Origin: Gimesia sp. | Lineage (GTDB): Bacteria > Planctomycetota > Planctomycetia > Planctomycetales > Planctomycetaceae | DNA length: 64,000 bases | Assembly: GCA_002706765.1 (NCBI GenBank) | Contig: PAJV01000013.1 | Location: 186,001-250,000, forward strand | Reading direction: 5' to 3' | In this document: positions 55,448 to 64,000 of the stretch, one piece after another | Position numbering within the stretch: position 1 is the stretch's first letter | Layout: each line of letters starts with the position of its first letter | Notes under the pieces: generated by a model | The model's database searches: none | The model's input: only the letters and a program-made list of their open reading frames with translations | Told to the model about the DNA's origin: nothing | Position numbers and translations under genes: made by a program

Positions 55448-57697
55448 ATGAACGTATTTTTCTTTCAGCCTCTGTTTGCATTTGGATTTGCCAGTCCCTG
55501 GCTGCTGATGGGACTGCTGGCGGCTGGAATTCCCATTCTGATTCATCTGCTGCACAAGCGAAAGTTTATTGAAACCGAATGGGCGGCCATGAAGTTCCTG
55601 ATGGCAGCAACCAGAAAATATTCCCGACGCGTGCGGTTCGAGCAACTGTTGATTCTGCTGGTCCGGTGTCTGATATTATTGCTGCTGGCGGTCGCGTTTT
55701 CGCGCCCCTACTGGTCGCTGCAAGGTGCCTTTTTTGAAACCGCGGCTCCCGTACATCGGATCCTGGTTGTCGATACCTCCTTCAGCATGCGCTGGCAGGG
55801 AGATGAAGAGACGCTGTTCGAGGAAGCCCGGGAAATCGCGCGTTCGATTGTTGCTTCTTCCCGGCAGGGAGATGCATTTCAGCTGATTCAGATTTCCAGC
55901 GCTTCGCCGCAGAAACTGATCACCCGCCCTTCACGCCAGCAGGCTTATATTCTTGAAGAAATTTCAAAACTGCAACCGACACAGGAATTCGGTAACGCCG
56001 GCCAGGCGCTGCAGGCGGCTCTGGAATTTCTGGGACAGGCACAGGAACTGGCGCAGAAAGAAGTGATCGTTATCAGTGATTTCCAGGCGGAGAGCTGGGC
56101 GCCCCAGCAGGCGGAACAGGGAAAATCGCGAATCCTGTCATTGATGGAGGCGTTATCCAAAAAAGCGACGCTGATTCTCAAAGACGTGGGCGTAGCGGAA
56201 GAATCGAATCTCGCCATTGTCGATTTCAACAGCAAGTCGGTATTTGCCACGCTGAATCAGCCGGTTCGCTTGAGTGTGACTCTGCATAATTATGGTCTTC
56301 TAAACCAGGATGCCGTCAACCTGCAGTTGTATGTGGATCAGCAACTGGTCAATCAGAAGCAGGTGGATCTGCCGGCAAATGCTGACACACAGGCAGAGTT
56401 TACCCATCAGTTTACCAGGGTTGGCGACCATCGACTGGAAGTTCGACTCGCCGACGATCGACTCCCCCTGGATAACCATCGCTGGAAAGTGATGCCCGTT
56501 AAAAAGGAGATCAACGTCCTGCTGGTCAATGGCAGACGCTCGACCGAAGCCATGGGCCGCGCGACTGATTTTCTGGAACTGGCGCTGTCTCCTTCATTGC
56601 AGGAGCAGCCCTGGCAGGGAATTATCAAACCACATGTGATCAATGAAGGCGAGCTGGCAACAACAGAGCTCAGCCTGTATGACGCGGTCGTGATCTGTGA
56701 TGTCGCGCTGTTTACAGATCATGAACGCGATCTGTTAAAACGTTACGTCAGCCGGGGAGGCGGATTGATCGTCAGTCTGGGCGAGCAGGTGAATGTCAAG
56801 AATTATAACCAGACGATCCTTCAACCAGAGCAGGGGCTGTTAGCTCTGAAACTGCTGGACCGTCGAGGCGATGCCCGCAAGCATACGACCCTGTTTGAGT
56901 TTGATCCGCTGCAGTATCAGCATCCGGTCATTGAAATCTTCAAGGGGAATCCTGATGCCGGGCTGGAAACGACTCATATCTACGAATACTTTCAGACAGA
57001 ACATCCCCCCGACACAAATACGCGGCCTGTATTGAATTATGATACGAACGACCCGGCGATCATCGAGGGGACACTCGGGCGGGGAAAAGTGGTTCTGATT
57101 ACGACTTCCCTCGATCGGCTCTGGGGGACGTGGGCAATCTGGCCCAGTTTTCCGCCGATGGTGAATGAACTTGTGCTCTATGTCGCAACCGGTAAATGGG
57201 GCAGCCGCGCTGTCCGAGTGGGACAGCCCCTGGAAATCATGACGCGGGAAAACCAGCTTACGCTCACTCCTCAGATGATTGCCCCGGACCAGGAAAAGTA
57301 TCCGCTCAGAAGTGTCCTCGACAGCAGCAATGAGTCCCGCACGATCACCTTTTCACAGACTCTGCTGTCTGGTTTCTATGAATTAGACTGGGGCTCCGCT
57401 GCCACCGAAAATACGCTCTACGCGGTGAATGTTTCTCCGCAGGAAAGTAATTTGACTCATATTGGGCCGCAGCTCATTCCAGCGCAGTATTTTCGTCGAC
57501 CCGAAGGAACGGAAAGCCAGCAGATGGAAGTACCCGAGGATCGCACCACACAGGCAGGCCTGGCGGAAAACCTGTTGTTGACCGTGCTGGCACTGATCGT
57601 GGTTGAACAGCTATTGCTCTGGCGGTTTTCAGCCGGCGCCTTGACGTTTCTGGTGGTCATGCTGATCTCCAGCCTGAGCCTGTTTTTCCTCCGCTGA
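55448..57697 (+). CDS. BatA-type membrane protein with VWA domain
   Basis: A 749-residue protein. The aerotolerance BatA N-terminal segment is clear: FASPWLLMGLLAAGIPILIHLL, then TEWAAMKFLMAATRKYSRRVR, and a second helix LLILLVRCLILLLLAVAFSRPYW. The VWA domain begins at about residue 100 with ILVVDTSFSMRW (MIDAS DxSxS). After it come a beta-rich part (residues 250-340) and a glutamine-amidotransferase-like fold with a class-I-like VICDVALFTDHERDLLKRYVSRGGGLIV, and a last helix pair near the C-terminus. It likely receives MoxR/DUF58 activity at the inner membrane. Confidence 0.93.
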   Translation: MNVFFFQPLFAFGFASPWLLMGLLAAGIPILIHLLHKRKFIETEWAAMKFLMAATRKYSRRVRFEQLLILLVRCLILLLLAVAFSRPYWSLQGAFFETAAPVHRILVVDTSFSMRWQGDEETLFEEAREIARSIVASSRQGDAFQLIQISSASPQKLITRPSRQQAYILEEISKLQPTQEFGNAGQALQAALEFLGQAQELAQKEVIVISDFQAESWAPQQAEQGKSRILSLMEALSKKATLILKDVGVAEESNLAIVDFNSKSVFATLNQPVRLSVTLHNYGLLNQDAVNLQLYVDQQLVNQKQVDLPANADTQAEFTHQFTRVGDHRLEVRLADDRLPLDNHRWKVMPVKKEINVLLVNGRRSTEAMGRATDFLELALSPSLQEQPWQGIIKPHVINEGELATTELSLYDAVVICDVALFTDHERDLLKRYVSRGGGLIVSLGEQVNVKNYNQTILQPEQGLLALKLLDRRGDARKHTTLFEFDPLQYQHPVIEIFKGNPDAGLETTHIYEYFQTEHPPDTNTRPVLNYDTNDPAIIEGTLGRGKVVLITTSLDRLWGTWAIWPSFPPMVNELVLYVATGKWGSRAVRVGQPLEIMTRENQLTLTPQMIAPDQEKYPLRSVLDSSNESRTITFSQTLLSGFYELDWGSAATENTLYAVNVSPQESNLTHIGPQLIPAQYFRRPEGTESQQMEVPEDRTTQAGLAENLLLTVLALIVVEQLLLWRFSAGALTFLVVMLISSLSLFFLR

Positions 57698-57730
57698 CAG
57701 GCGGGGAGTCTGTGATTTTCTCATCTCCTG

Positions 57731-57739
57731 TGCTATAAT
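57731..57739 (+). promoter_or_regulatory. Extended -10 promoter of the small coiled-coil gene
   Basis: TG-C-TATAAT, a perfect extended -10 element, lies about 40 bases before the first ATG at 57781. The -35 region is poor, as expected for extended -10 promoters. It gives the tiny gene its own transcript apart from the BatA operon. Confidence 0.6.
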
Positions 57740-57780
57740 GAACCGTCCGAAAAGTTGGTTCGTCTCCTGAATATGAGGAA

Positions 57781-57972
57781 ATGCAGTCCGTAATGAGCCT
57801 GAATAAGAAGCAGAAAAAACAGATCGACATCGCGCGTCAGAAAATCCAGAAACTGCGCCAGCGTTTAACCGGTGCCAAAGAGCAGATGGATGATCCCCAG
57901 GAAGTCAAAAGTCTGGAGCAGGAAATTGCCGTCCAGGAAGATCTGATCAAGAAGGCCCAGGAAGCTTCCTGA
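57781..57972 (+). CDS. Small coiled-coil protein
   Basis: A 63-residue, highly charged protein (MSLNKKQKKQIDIARQKI, then LRQRLTGAKEQMD and EQEIAVQEDLIKKA) predicted to form a single long coiled coil or helical hairpin. ATGs at 57781 and 57793 are both possible; GAGGAA sits directly before the first. Size and charge suggest an RNA- or protein-binding accessory, but I cannot assign a role. A strong promoter element lies just upstream. Confidence 0.72.
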   Translation: MQSVMSLNKKQKKQIDIARQKIQKLRQRLTGAKEQMDDPQEVKSLEQEIAVQEDLIKKAQEAS

Positions 57973-58055
57973 ACCGCGCCTATCAGAAACCATTTCTATT
58001 AATCAGGTTCTGCTGAAGCGGAATAGCAAGCATTTCATCTGAAAAGACCGAAGCA

Positions 58056-58514
58056 GTGTCTGGCTCACATCCTCCCACCGTGATCGTGGTACACCCCAAA
58101 GAACGCAAAAGCAAATGCACCGTGCAGCCTCTGCGCACGCATGAGAAGTTTGTCTTCTGGAAGTATCCCCGCAAAGAAGCCGACTTCCTACAGGGGTATG
58201 TGCGCCTGGGCCTGGAAGGTCCGTTAATCAGTCCGGCGGATGCCGATTCTGGTCTGCTGGTTCTTGATGGAACCTGGCGGCTGGCAGAGAAAATGGAACC
58301 TGATTATCAGGAGTTGCCCGTTCGCAGCCTGCCGGCCTGGAAAACAGCATATCCCCGGGTCTCAAAACAGTATGCAGATCCTTCAACCGGTCTTGCCACC
58401 ATTGAGGCCATTTACATCGCTTATTATCTGATGGGCCTCGATACAACGGGCCTGCTGGAAGGTTACTACTGGGCCGACCAGTTTCTGGAACTGAATCGCG
58501 ATCAACTGTCGTAA
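58056..58514 (+). CDS. DTW/Tsr3-superfamily aminocarboxypropyltransferase-like protein
   Basis: A 152-residue protein. The N-terminus has [19 protein letters not shown], the middle [12 protein letters not shown], which is the DTW-type DxTW motif, and the C-terminus [18 protein letters not shown]. Members transfer the 3-amino-3-carboxypropyl group of S-adenosylmethionine to a uridine in tRNA (TapT) or to a pseudouridine in small-subunit rRNA (Tsr3). The start is GTG at 58056, the only sensible one. I cannot choose between a tRNA and an rRNA substrate. Confidence 0.82.
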
Positions 58515-58536
58515 TTCGCACTCATTGCTGCGTGAA

Positions 58537-61191
58537 TCATTCCGTGATCAACTCTGGCTCAGCATGACATTGATACTTCACCACGATATTACGGAGTTTC
58601 TCCCGATTGACCGGTTTGGTTGTGTAATCCGTGCAGCCGGCATCAATACATTTTTGTCGATCTCCGGTCATGGCATGCGCGGTCAATGCTATAATAGGAG
58701 TCTCAATTCCCAGTTCACGCAGTTTTCTGGTGGCGCCATATCCATCCAGAACCGGCATCGACATATCCATCAGAATGACATCAAACGGTTTCCCCTGTTG
58801 CTCGGCATTCAGTGCCCGCCTGACAGCGATGTCACCGTTTTCCGCCAGCACTACATGTGCTTTTTCTTTTTTCAGCAGCGTGGAAATCAGTCGCTGGTTA
58901 TCTACACCATCTTCTGCCAGCAGTACCGAGCAGCTACCCCTGATGATCATTTCTGAATCCGATTCAGTGATTCCCGACTCCTGCAGGTTCACGGGAATCT
59001 GTTTGAAGTCGACCTGTGGATTTGTATGAAATTCCAATGGTGCCGGGTTGCCAATACCAATGGTCAGTGTGAAGACGGTCCCTTCACCGGGCACGCTTTC
59101 GCAATACAGATCACCACCCAGCATCTCAGCCAGTCGCTTGCTGATAGCCAGCCCCAGGCCGGTTCCACCAAACTTACGCGTCGTGGAAGAGTCTGCCTGG
59201 ACGAACGGCTGATAGAGCATGTCGATCTGCCCGGCGGTCATGCCGATGCCCGTGTCACGGATTTTGAATTCCAGCAGTGGTTCATTGGAACTGGAATTCA
59301 AAAGCGATGTTTCCACCGAAACTTTTCCCCCGTCTGGTGTGAATTTGATCGCGTTCCCGATCAGGTTGATCAGGATCTGTTTGAACCGTGTTGGATCGCT
59401 CTGAATCTCAACAGGGATATTACCATTAAAGGACAGTTTGAACTGTAATTTCTGATATTCAGCCCTGACTTTCATCAGCGCCTGAATTTCTTTCAGTTTT
59501 TCCAGCAGCGGAAACGGAATGGTTTCGATACTCAGATTTCCCGATTCAATTTTGGAGAGATCGAGAATATCGTTGATCAGTTCCAGCAGATAGTTCCCGT
59601 TGCGTTTGATCACGTCCAGTAATTCGATACTGCCCGGGCGGCCCCAGCTTTCTTCCAGCAGCAAATCGGTATACCCCAGGACGGCGGTCATCGGCGTGCG
59701 GATTTCATGGCTCATGTTTGCCAGGAATTCACTTTTGGCCCGCGATGCTGCTTCGGCGTCGGTATTGGCCTGTTTTAATCGCTCGGCTTTTTCTTCCAGT
59801 TCGCGGCGGGTCAGCTCGAGGTTTTCCGTGCGGTCTTTTAATTCATTCAATGCCAGATCCCTTATTTGTGTTACTCTATTATATTGTCTGGCAATCAGGC
59901 CGACATCGCTGTTTTCATCCAGATCTTCGCCCAGATGGGAATTGCCTTTGATATGCAACTCCATCAGGTTCAACAGTTCGTACATTTCTGAAGTGGCACC
60001 ATGTTCCGCCATATTCAGTCCCTGCTTTTCTTCGTCTTCGGTCGCCCGCAGTCGAATGTATTTACTGATGACTCGCAACGTGATCCAGCAGAAAGAAAAG
60101 CACCAGATGAAGCAGACAGCACAGCCCAGTAACTGAACCAGAAACTGTTCCAGGCGGGAGTGTGCCAGGAATTCCGCTGGAATAAACAAGGCAACCGCCA
60201 GTGTCCCCCAGACTCCGGCAAAGCCATGAACGGGAATCACGCCAATCGTGTCGTCAAGCTGGAAGTGATCCAGAACGCGGACACCTGCTTGCATGACGAT
60301 CGCTGCCACAATTCCTATCACCACTGCAGATGCCGGCGAGACCACATCACAGCTGGCACTGCTCGCGACCAGCCCTGCCAGCAGACCATTCAGAACAGGT
60401 TCGATCTCGATCTGTTTACGCAGGTAATACTGCCAGATCAGCATGGTGATGGCACCACAGGCAGAAGCCAGAAAGGTATTAATGAAGATTTGTGGGACAT
60501 GCGAGGTGAAACCAAATTCACTGCCGCCGTTGAATCCAAACCAGCCCATCCAGAGGATGAAGACCCCCATGGTCGCCAGGGTCAGATTGTGACCTCGCAA
60601 TTTTCGAGAAGAGGTACGTTGATCAAATTTTCCAATTCGGGGCCCGATAATCACGATCGATGCCAGTGCAGCCCATGCTCCCAGAGAATGGACAACCGTT
60701 GAACCGCTGAAGTCCCGGAAACCCAGTGACTCCAGCCAGCCGGGTGCTTTCCCGACAAAATGGCTGGTCCAGGCCCAGTGACCAAACACGGGATAAATGA
60801 TTCCCCCCAGAACAATCGAAAGAATCACGTAAGCCGTAAAACGCATCCGTTCGGCTGAGGCGCCCGATGCGATTGTGGCGGCCGTCGTACACAGCATCAG
60901 TTGAAACAGGAAAAACGCGGATAGAAATATATCGGAACCGGAATTCGTAAAGGGAAAATAAGTGGTGCCGATCAGGCCCCCGGTCGTCGCTCCAAACATC
61001 AGGCCGAAACCGAAAATCCAATACAATATCCCCACAGTACTTACGTCGACAACATTTTTGATGGCGACGTGAATACTGTTTTTGGAACGCGAAAGTCCCG
61101 ATTCCAGACAGCAGAATCCCGCCTGCATAAACAGGACAAATATACTGCAGACTAAAATCCAGAGAATGTCAATTTGTTGATTGAGTTCCAT
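58537..61191 (-). CDS. Ammonium transporter-histidine kinase-receiver fusion
   Basis: An 884-residue single chain. Residues 1-400 are a complete Amt transporter with about eleven helices: Asp160 and His168 in DFSGSTVVH and His322 in PVHGFAG are the pore twin-histidine residues, and ASGASAERMRF and the cytoplasmic GLNMAEHG are present. A coiled linker (residues 430-485) leads to a HisKA dimerisation motif with His495 (MSHEIRTP), N-box Asn613, and G-boxes DTGIG (646-650) and GGTGLG (675-680). A C-terminal receiver has phosphoacceptor Asp809 (LMDMSMP), Thr837 and Lys859. It is a candidate ammonium-sensing hybrid kinase. Confidence 0.95.
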   Translation of the reverse strand: MELNQQIDILWILVCSIFVLFMQAGFCCLESGLSRSKNSIHVAIKNVVDVSTVGILYWIFGFGLMFGATTGGLIGTTYFPFTNSGSDIFLSAFFLFQLMLCTTAATIASGASAERMRFTAYVILSIVLGGIIYPVFGHWAWTSHFVGKAPGWLESLGFRDFSGSTVVHSLGAWAALASIVIIGPRIGKFDQRTSSRKLRGHNLTLATMGVFILWMGWFGFNGGSEFGFTSHVPQIFINTFLASACGAITMLIWQYYLRKQIEIEPVLNGLLAGLVASSASCDVVSPASAVVIGIVAAIVMQAGVRVLDHFQLDDTIGVIPVHGFAGVWGTLAVALFIPAEFLAHSRLEQFLVQLLGCAVCFIWCFSFCWITLRVISKYIRLRATEDEEKQGLNMAEHGATSEMYELLNLMELHIKGNSHLGEDLDENSDVGLIARQYNRVTQIRDLALNELKDRTENLELTRRELEEKAERLKQANTDAEAASRAKSEFLANMSHEIRTPMTAVLGYTDLLLEESWGRPGSIELLDVIKRNGNYLLELINDILDLSKIESGNLSIETIPFPLLEKLKEIQALMKVRAEYQKLQFKLSFNGNIPVEIQSDPTRFKQILINLIGNAIKFTPDGGKVSVETSLLNSSSNEPLLEFKIRDTGIGMTAGQIDMLYQPFVQADSSTTRKFGGTGLGLAISKRLAEMLGGDLYCESVPGEGTVFTLTIGIGNPAPLEFHTNPQVDFKQIPVNLQESGITESDSEMIIRGSCSVLLAEDGVDNQRLISTLLKKEKAHVVLAENGDIAVRRALNAEQQGKPFDVILMDMSMPVLDGYGATRKLRELGIETPIIALTAHAMTGDRQKCIDAGCTDYTTKPVNREKLRNIVVKYQCHAEPELITE

Positions 61192-61904
61192 GGCATTGAC
61201 TCATACATCAGAAGAGGCAGAAGATTTTAAGCTTCCTGTATTTTCCCAAGGCTTGCATATACAAACTCAGGGAAGAGGATTGGTGATTCACAGGAAACAA
61301 AGCGATGTTTCATTCTGGAAAAGCTTATGTTTTTTTCTGTCAACATGTGCCAGAGATCAACAATTTCGCATGACCAGTTCAGCCTGTAGACTTATCTGCG
61401 TGAAATCCCTATATCCTTATGGAGGGAAACGTTTTAACTTGAACAGATGGACGGAAGAGAGCAGTAGAAAACCTCCTCGATTTGAAAATACTTTCTAAAT
61501 CATCACTTAGGATCATTCCTCGGAGAGGGATCTGACCGTCAGGATCGATTCAAGCCATCAATCCGTTTCCATTGTTCTGACAGGCAGTGTGATAAAAAAA
61601 TAGGACGTTCCTTACTCCTCCAATGAACGAATCAGCGCCATTACTCCTCAATGGTTCGAATACTTACGGTACAAAAGTATCCAGGCGAATCGGTTTGTGC
61701 CCGGAAATTCTCAGTTGCCACTGCGAAAGATTGTTCGTGATCGTGTGGCTCTCGAACCATGACGTTTCAAAGCCTGTTCTGGGACTTTCTGGTCTGCCTT
61801 GCTTGATTATTTTGCTGTGCTTGTTAACGTTGGGAAGATTTGCGCAGATAAAGGTCTCAGAGCCAGAATACAATGTACATTTGCTGTGAAAGTGATCCGA
61901 GAAA
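61192..61904. other. Long divergent intergenic region between Amt-kinase and carB
   Basis: About 713 bases with no convincing gene. An imperfect direct repeat (TTACTCCTCCAATG at 61612-61625; TTACTCCTCAATGG at 61641-61654) lies about 250 bases before carB. An 88-codon frame at 61623-61889 has no ribosome-binding site. No sigma54 box was found on either strand. Confidence 0.5.
61612..61654. repeat. Imperfect direct repeat upstream of carB
   Basis: Two copies of TTACTCCTC(C)AATG spaced 29 bases start to start. They could be a regulator's operator pair in the carB leader; there is no further support. Confidence 0.35.

Positions 61905-64000
<2,096 letters not shown>

Follow-up and report, generated by a model that had tools for sequence, protein, structure and literature searches.

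A fused ammonium transporter-histidine kinase-receiver protein of Gimesia, a probable orphan ammonium sensor

According to the introduction of the report on Ks-Amt5, fusions of ammonium transporter (Amt) domains with other domains had been noticed earlier (PMC5764959), and we found two Amt receptors with a fused output and a solved structure, Ks-Amt5 and Sd-Amt1. Ks-Amt5 (kust_3690) is an Amt-kinase of Candidatus Kuenenia stuttgartiensis (PDB 6EU6); it hardly translocates, its phosphorylation increases sharply when ammonium is low and declines when ammonium is high, and the C-terminal region of an Amt lies against the neighbouring protomer (PMC5764959). Kuenenia has two Amt-kinase genes, with levels that were low and unchanged under the conditions tested (PMC7438415). 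Here, we examined a gene at positions 58,537 to 61,191 of a 64,000-nucleotide stretch from Gimesia sp. (assembly GCA_002706765.1, contig PAJV01000013.1, here C13, positions 186,001 to 250,000; this whole stretch is “the window”). Its product, the window protein, joins an Amt module to a histidine kinase and a receiver. With a probability of roughly three in four, we read it as an orphan hybrid ammonium-sensor kinase, in which a former transporter has been kept as an ammonium receptor and would act through a HAMP-like linker on a phosphorelay that starts at H495, passes through D809 and leads, by way of a free-standing HPt protein, to a regulator from another locus.

The fused gene and its conservation

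The open reading frame (ORF) list gives a single ATG-started frame of 884 residues from 61191 to 58537, with four Pfam domains above their curated cut-offs, in agreement with the uninterrupted Amt-kinase-receiver frame described in the first-pass annotation. Its parts are as follows.

58537..61191, minus strand: whole gene, 884 residues, Amt - HAMP-like linker - HisKA - HATPase_c - REC (ORF list, Pfam, residue check)
59992..61191, minus strand: Amt sensor module, residues 1-400, with D160, H168, H322, W139/W141, S224 and F220; L100 replaces the first Phe-gate residue (Pfam, alignments, AlphaFold2 helices)
60892..60894, minus strand: L100, at the position of Ks-Amt5 F103 (alignment)
60013..60021, minus strand: C-terminal motif G391-L392-N393, mostly GLD or GMD in short-tailed Amts (alignment)
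59827..59991, minus strand: HAMP-like linker, residues 401-455, with a helix at 402-414, a loop at 415-428 and a long helix from 429 into the DHp domain (profile comparison, AlphaFold2)
59539..59739, minus strand: HisKA (DHp), residues 485-551, phospho-acceptor H495 (Pfam, residue check)
59059..59397, minus strand: HATPase_c, residues 599-711, with N613, DTGIG and GGTGLG (Pfam, residue check)
58927..59058, minus strand: variable linker, residues 712-755 (orthologue identity, AlphaFold2 confidence)
58582..58926, minus strand: REC, residues 756-870, with E760, D761, D809, T837 and K859 (Pfam Response_reg, residue check)

The Ammonium_transp match is full length (residues 10-400, E 2.9e-115, 385.6 bits, profile 1-397 of 399), and the twin His, the conserved Asp and the Trp/Ser entry site are kept, as in members of the Amt/Mep/Rh family (PF00909). 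The kinase has H495 in HEIRTP, N613, DTGIG at 646 and GGTGLG at 675, and the active site of the receiver is intact (D809, T837, K859 and the acidic pair E760/D761); the His, Asn and two G-boxes of the kinase and the Asp, Thr and Lys of the receiver are those named in the first-pass annotation. With HisKA, HATPase_c and REC all present and their active sites intact, the protein is a hybrid histidine kinase, and the earlier observation of an Amt-kinase-receiver fusion protein is confirmed.

Relatives were searched in 39 genomes, 16 of them of the same genus, counting among the matches listed. A full-length, stop-free orthologue in a single frame is present in 13 of the 16 other genus genomes; in G001 the orthologue is spread over two overlapping frames by a shift within the Amt part, in G007 it covers residues 354-876 only and contains one TAA, and for G006 (76% complete) no orthologue of this kind is among the matches listed. 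The 15 genus loci fetched from other genomes all have the gene, or what is left of it, between the same divergent and convergent neighbours. The ratio of nonsynonymous to synonymous substitution rates (dN/dS) across the whole gene is 0.06-0.12 in four of five comparisons (dS was not estimable in the fifth), with purifying selection acting on Amt, kinase and REC. Residues 712-755 have 22-59% identity to five orthologues, and AlphaFold2 confidence (predicted local distance difference test, pLDDT) is below 50 over 717-751. An error of sequencing or assembly that joined neighbouring genes, which had been named in advance as the test of the fusion, is ruled out by the 13 same-frame orthologues, the kept gene order and the purifying selection, and a second fusion of the same kind (paralogue B, below) exists in the own genome; we give this explanation practically no weight.

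The damage in G001 and G007 (loci L057 and L061) occurs although the listed neighbours match well. The gene can therefore be lost.

The Amt module within a family of fused Amts

The solved sequences closest to the window protein are both Amt receptors, Sd-Amt1 (43% identity, template modelling (TM) score to the target 0.95) and Ks-Amt5 (41%, 0.95). To place it more widely, we used alignment A1, which holds 38 proteins picked by similarity to the window protein, a biased choice that includes at least four stand-alone Amts, and a scan of 84,980 species genomes for a C-terminal Amt pattern (GLN plus a DD[VAT] stretch), from which the best 80 of 587 confirmed loci (of at least 595 stretches) were taken.

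In a tree of the Amt part, a single branch (support 100/99, recovered in 200 of 200 bootstrap trees) divides 59 sensor rows from 20 stand-alone ones. This tree holds 79 of 86 rows (L123, L122, L078, L115, L212, L162 and L206 were left out as long, odd or mislabelled); an earlier filter had removed 18 name prefixes, standing for near-copies and for rows with insufficient coverage of the Amt part. Its stand-alone rows come from Planctomycetota genomes only, and the Amt-PII protein L124 is counted among them. Seven rows, namely those of the window group, those of the paralogue B group and a G018 protein, make up a single starred set. Within this sampling, the pattern fits a single receptor origin with later exchange of outputs. 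The grouping with fused Amts, like the identity of the nearest solved sequences, supports the view of the first-pass annotation that the Amt part is a sensor.

Position 393 follows this division. Where stand-alone Amts have GLD or GMD, the window protein has GLN. In an alignment of 65 sensors and 17 stand-alone Amts, 63 of the former carry Asn at this position and all of the latter carry Asp. Since the genome-scan pattern itself contained GLN, its 80 loci are no proof of this mark, and we recounted the residue on loci found without the pattern. There, Asn is present in 46 of 49 fused Amts, with Asp in L093 and in the Amt-PII fusion L124 and the motif lost in L089, and Asp is present in 42 of 43 Amts with a tail below 60 residues, the exception (L033) running off its contig. 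Twenty-seven of the 49 come from the genus itself, as orthologues of its two fused genes (14 of A, 13 of B); without them, Asn is found in 19 of 22. As for L124 itself, the gene at L124:5269-7002 (minus strand) combines an Amt-PII domain fusion with the transporter-type GLD motif.

The pore is that of an Amt with alterations. The first-pass annotation called it complete, which holds for D160, H168 and H322 and fails for the two-Phe gate of transport-type channels, here L100 and F220. All 17 stand-alone Amts of the alignment just mentioned, and 60 of its 65 sensors, have Phe at position 100; Leu is shared by all six orthologues of alignment A1 (window protein and five genus orthologues), and Phe is found in five of five sequences of paralogue B. 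The bulky residues said to close the pore of Ks-Amt5 (F27, Y30 and F34) correspond to F26, L29 and L33, and F26 also occurs in 16 of 17 stand-alone Amts. From the two-ion site proposed for Ks-Amt5 (Q24, E31, N47, D50, T51, T109 and T112), the window protein keeps Q23, E30, N46, D49 and T106 and has V50 and S109 at the other two positions. The five kept residues occur in 92-100% of sensors and in 76-94% of stand-alone Amts. At the two that differ, S109 is the usual residue in either group, and few sequences, sensors included, have Thr where the window protein has V50. We therefore rejected the site residues as a mark of sensors, as stand-alone Amts mostly carry them. The authors of the Ks-Amt5 study describe the site as absent from assimilatory Amts (PMC5764959); this may hold against Archaeoglobus Amt1, the comparison those authors made, but in our alignments most stand-alone Amts of this subfamily carry the residues.

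Outputs are diverse. Tails longer than 60 residues follow 83 of the 85 Amt frames in the pattern-scan loci, and home-made models assign 27 of these tails to kinases, 25 to GGDEF with or without EAL, 13 to SpoIIE-type phosphatases, 12 to MCP and two to cyclases, with four unassigned and one kinase tail also matching the cyclase model. Pfam confirmed the output kinds on examples (of ten proteins run, L147 showed Amt only). Among the 38 proteins of A1, Pfam matches (details for 18) number 28 for HisKA, 22 for REC, six for HPt, two for MCP and one for PII. The suggestion that a hybrid form with a receiver is less common is not supported by these two sets, both biased, with REC in 22 of 38 A1 proteins beside HisKA in 28, and in 10 of 27 kinase-type tails, some of whose frames end at contig ends.

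Taken together, we lean slightly towards a broader reading, in which signalling Amts would form one ancient receptor family in place of scattered fusions. Its main branch would have a HAMP-like converter immediately after the Amt trimer, a single C-terminal change from Asp to Asn would mark the passage from transporter to receptor, and outputs (histidine kinase with or without REC/HPt, GGDEF/EAL, MCP, SpoIIE phosphatase and nucleotide cyclase) would have been swapped behind the shared unit. If this is so, the published two-ion site is not what makes a receptor.

Several members of the set deserve mention in their own right. In the SAR11 single-cell genomes of L210, L214 and L215, two adjoining genes each encode an Amt, a HAMP-like linker and a SpoIIE-type phosphatase (Pfam confirmed both of L214). 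The same linker joins an Amt to an adenylate/guanylate cyclase in a Leptospiraceae metagenome-assembled genome (MAG) (L202:3464-5530, Pfam) and to a cyclase in an Oscillatoriales MAG (L169, home-made model only). L073, L076, L157 and L216 combine an Amt with the signalling domain of a chemoreceptor and are possibly ammonium chemoreceptors, and a Chloroflexi MAG has a tandem pair of genes with Amt, PAS, histidine kinase and REC (L161:5092-11734, home-made models).

The own genome has four Amts, two stand-alone (on C76 and C4) and two fused, namely the window protein and paralogue B. The latter (L005:7545-10535, minus strand, 996 residues), absent from the first-pass annotation, lies on the same contig, about 97 kb from the window gene, and shares with it, as do its orthologues, the order Amt, HAMP-like linker, histidine kinase and REC; it differs in an extra PAS domain before HisKA, an intact Phe gate and other neighbours, which we take from their sequences to be comM, dus, thiE and a clpC-like gene. 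Directly beside the comM-like fragment next to paralogue B, the gene at L005:5216-7537 is presumably serine-recombinase-like and possibly belongs to an integrated element.

The HAMP-like linker, signal transfer and alternatives

Residues 401-455, on which the first-pass annotation did not remark, follow a pattern common to the kinase and MCP forms (GLNxAEHGAxTExxDLLxxM..GD...TEVGxIAxxYNxV) and also align to Sd-Amt1. A profile of 19 linkers selected from A1 matched the HAMP domains of the own genome with hhalign probability 90 and score 32.8, above the maximum of 16.4 in 200 column shuffles and 9.8 for the reversed profile. With 80 linkers (79 of the 83, leaving out L143, L197 and both of L215, plus that of the window), the probability was 96. 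Pfam HAMP (PF00672) was detected in 10 of the 19 linkers (E up to 10, best 6.7e-4) and in 39 of the 80 (E up to 0.1, best 2e-7). Among Ks-Amt5-type linkers, HAMP was detected in none of four and the profile probability was 0.2, with only four sequences in that profile. The AlphaFold2 model (mean pLDDT 86, predicted TM score (pTM) 0.59) has a helix at 402-414, a loop at 415-428 and a helix at 429-513 that enters the DHp domain, with pLDDT 77-87 over 401-460.

By analogy with Ks-Amt5, we infer that ammonium is the ligand and would be bound in or below the pore of the Amt part. The C-terminal region with the GLN motif would then shift against the neighbouring protomer, and the two-helix, HAMP-like linker would pass this movement to the kinase domains, which would pair so that the HATPase phosphorylates H495. 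D809 of the attached REC would then receive the phosphate and pass it, by way of a free-standing HPt protein, to a regulator from another locus.

Several observations weigh against this scheme. Amt proteins are trimers and HAMP and HisKA domains usually dimers, a mismatch in symmetry. The linker of the window protein has no Pfam HAMP match, even at E 10. All 11 HAMPs of the genome carry the AS1 proline, whereas no proline is conserved in the linkers, so we use the name “HAMP-like” only. Model confidence falls to pLDDT 63-75 over 461-510, and pTM is 0.59. Two residues of the Ks-Amt5 site differ (T51 to Val, T112 to Ser), and those kept are no proof of a receptor, as they are mostly present in stand-alone Amts too. 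Finally, two of the 16 genus relatives have a damaged copy, frameshifted in G001 and truncated in G007.

The best-surviving alternative, which we consider unlikely, is a transceptor, a protein that both transports and signals, with an Amt part that still conducts ammonium and a kinase that reads the flux. In its favour, the protein retains Asp160, the twin His and the entry-site Trp and Ser, and L29 and L33 (Y30 and F34 in Ks-Amt5, PMC5764959), together with L100, could make the pore more open than that of Ks-Amt5. However, the genome already has two stand-alone Amts, one of which (on C76) adjoins two PII genes, and the contig of the fused genes has no PII gene; the window protein also groups with fused Amts, among them look-alikes of Ks-Amt5, itself described as hardly translocating (PMC5764959).

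A little less credible still is a receiver that serves as a brake or phosphate sink, the true partner being a response regulator phosphorylated directly by H495. This would agree with the lack of an HPt match on the same contig and with the relatives, as REC was undetected in 17 of 27 kinase-type proteins (some frames being cut by contig ends). Against it, the active site of the REC is full and about as conserved as the kinase, relatives carry HPt, and the genome has two stand-alone HPt genes above cut-off (C76:26677 and C16:292673).

The relay step to HPt is supported by the fused HPt domains of six of the 38 A1 proteins; domains of this kind were shown singly in L071, L072, L077, L078 and L115 (Pfam) and L154 (home-made model). 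The genome gave eight HPt matches, none of them on C13, and the only REC match in C13:186001-250000 is that of the window protein itself, which bears out the earlier statement that no HPt is encoded nearby. A search for HPt and response-regulator partners elsewhere in the genome, proposed in the first-pass annotation, returned the two stand-alone HPt genes; with 78 REC and 37 HisKA matches in the genome, pairing by elimination is impossible. One of the two genes, C16:292673, lies within a run of HPt, REC and PilZ genes (L043:1402-3010), a possible downstream branch that we regard as a lead only.

The gene neighbourhood of the window locus gave no partner. It contains the following genes, which also flank the sensor gene, or what is left of it, in each of the 15 genus loci fetched.

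61905..63998, plus strand: divergent neighbour, which runs past the window end, from its sequence presumably a carbamoyl-phosphate synthase large-subunit-like (carB-like) gene; a role alongside the sensor is only putative
58056..58514, plus strand: convergent neighbour, which we take from its sequence to be Tsr3/DTW-like

Between these neighbours, the sensor gene is a single-gene unit without an adjoining regulator. An Rfam scan of 57500-64000 gave nothing at gathering scores, and a crude pattern, applied to the 713 bp between the genes, found no sigma-54-like promoter reading towards amt.

The phosphorelay draws further support from five other loci, in which a long Amt kinase gene directly adjoins a gene for a REC-HD-GYP regulator with the HD and GYP motifs; the output there is probably breakdown of cyclic di-GMP.

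L071:9758-10822: REC-HD-GYP regulator gene
L072:4171-5244: REC-HD-GYP regulator gene
L074:1966-3027: REC-HD-GYP regulator gene
L077:10600-11706: REC-HD-GYP regulator gene
L154:8690-10042: REC-HD-GYP regulator gene

L078 and L115 have no such neighbour in the stretch examined, which for L115 is at a contig end. A partner of this type in the own genome was rejected, as the L072 protein used as query gave no match spanning the REC and HD parts; six HD_5 genes exist there. Elsewhere, an NtrC-like REC-sigma54-HTH regulator (L116:6280-7695) lies directly downstream of a fusion of Amt, PAS, GAF and histidine kinase, and similar single-domain REC genes (L118:11026-11403 and L120:1247-1639; Pfam for L118 only) lie 3-4 kb from a Ks-Amt5-like gene, with none in the examined stretches of three other such loci.

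A ligand other than ammonium, whether another small molecule or ion at the Amt vestibule (for example, methylammonium) or a membrane or pH signal, is improbable. The two changed site positions (T51 to V50 and T112 to S109) and the altered Phe gate speak for it; against it, the selectivity residues W139/W141, S224, D160 and the twin His are kept, S109 is common in sensors and stand-alone Amts alike, and even sensors seldom have Thr in place of V50.

Comparison with known ammonium receptors and hybrid kinases

If sensor Amts share an origin, a residue signature and a HAMP-like converter, annotations as “ammonium transporter” mislead. Sequence alone would then separate sensors from transporters, coupling from trimer to dimer would be testable across many systems, and it could be predicted which residues turn an Amt into a receptor and which have no such effect.

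Fungal Mep2 transceptors reportedly signal without fusion to an output domain. Within the limits of the available texts, transporter domains of another family act as the sensors of hybrid kinases in SLC5-domain proteins such as CrbS, which differs from the window protein also in its STAC linker and its known response regulator (PMC5715377), and GrtK of Burkholderia is an ammonia-sensing kinase without an Amt (PMC12918730). Our literature search, mostly judged by titles and opening abstracts, with subscription papers largely outside it, found no description of an Amt-HAMP receptor family and no paper on Sd-Amt1.

Sd-Amt1 of Shewanella denitrificans is a receptor according to its entry titles (PDB 8QJ3, OFF state; 8QJ4, ON state; 8QPF). 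It aligns over residues 10-450 of the window protein, linker included, and, unlike that protein, has no aligned kinase or REC part. We judge its output to be GGDEF because a GGDEF-tailed protein of Vibrio (motif and home-made model) aligns to it over residues 9-630 of 644, and with about 400 residues in the structure, the linker of Sd-Amt1 is probably unresolved there.

The comparison with the Amt-kinase of Kuenenia drawn in the first-pass annotation proved apt. Like Ks-Amt5, the window protein has Amt and HisKA/HATPase in one chain, the GLN motif, most ammonium-site residues and a loop 5 that aligns without gaps, and the Ks-Amt5 look-alikes L117-L120 fall in the same sensor group; the genomes of L117-L121 are taken as those of anammox bacteria from their Ks-Amt5-like proteins. 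In contrast, Ks-Amt5 has 679 residues and no REC, with a short helical link that its authors describe as lacking HAMP (PMC5764959), and its pore has F27-Y30-F34 and a complete Phe gate in place of F26-L29-L33 and L100. With Leu at two of the three bulky pore-closing positions, we file the window protein as a variant of the Ks-Amt5-type sensor kinases and not as a strict member. Amt-kinase sensors are thus known; what appears new here from the sequences compared, within the sampling, is the split between sensors and stand-alone Amts, the N393 signature, the HAMP-like linker and the finding that most residues of the proposed two-ion site are common in stand-alone Amts too.

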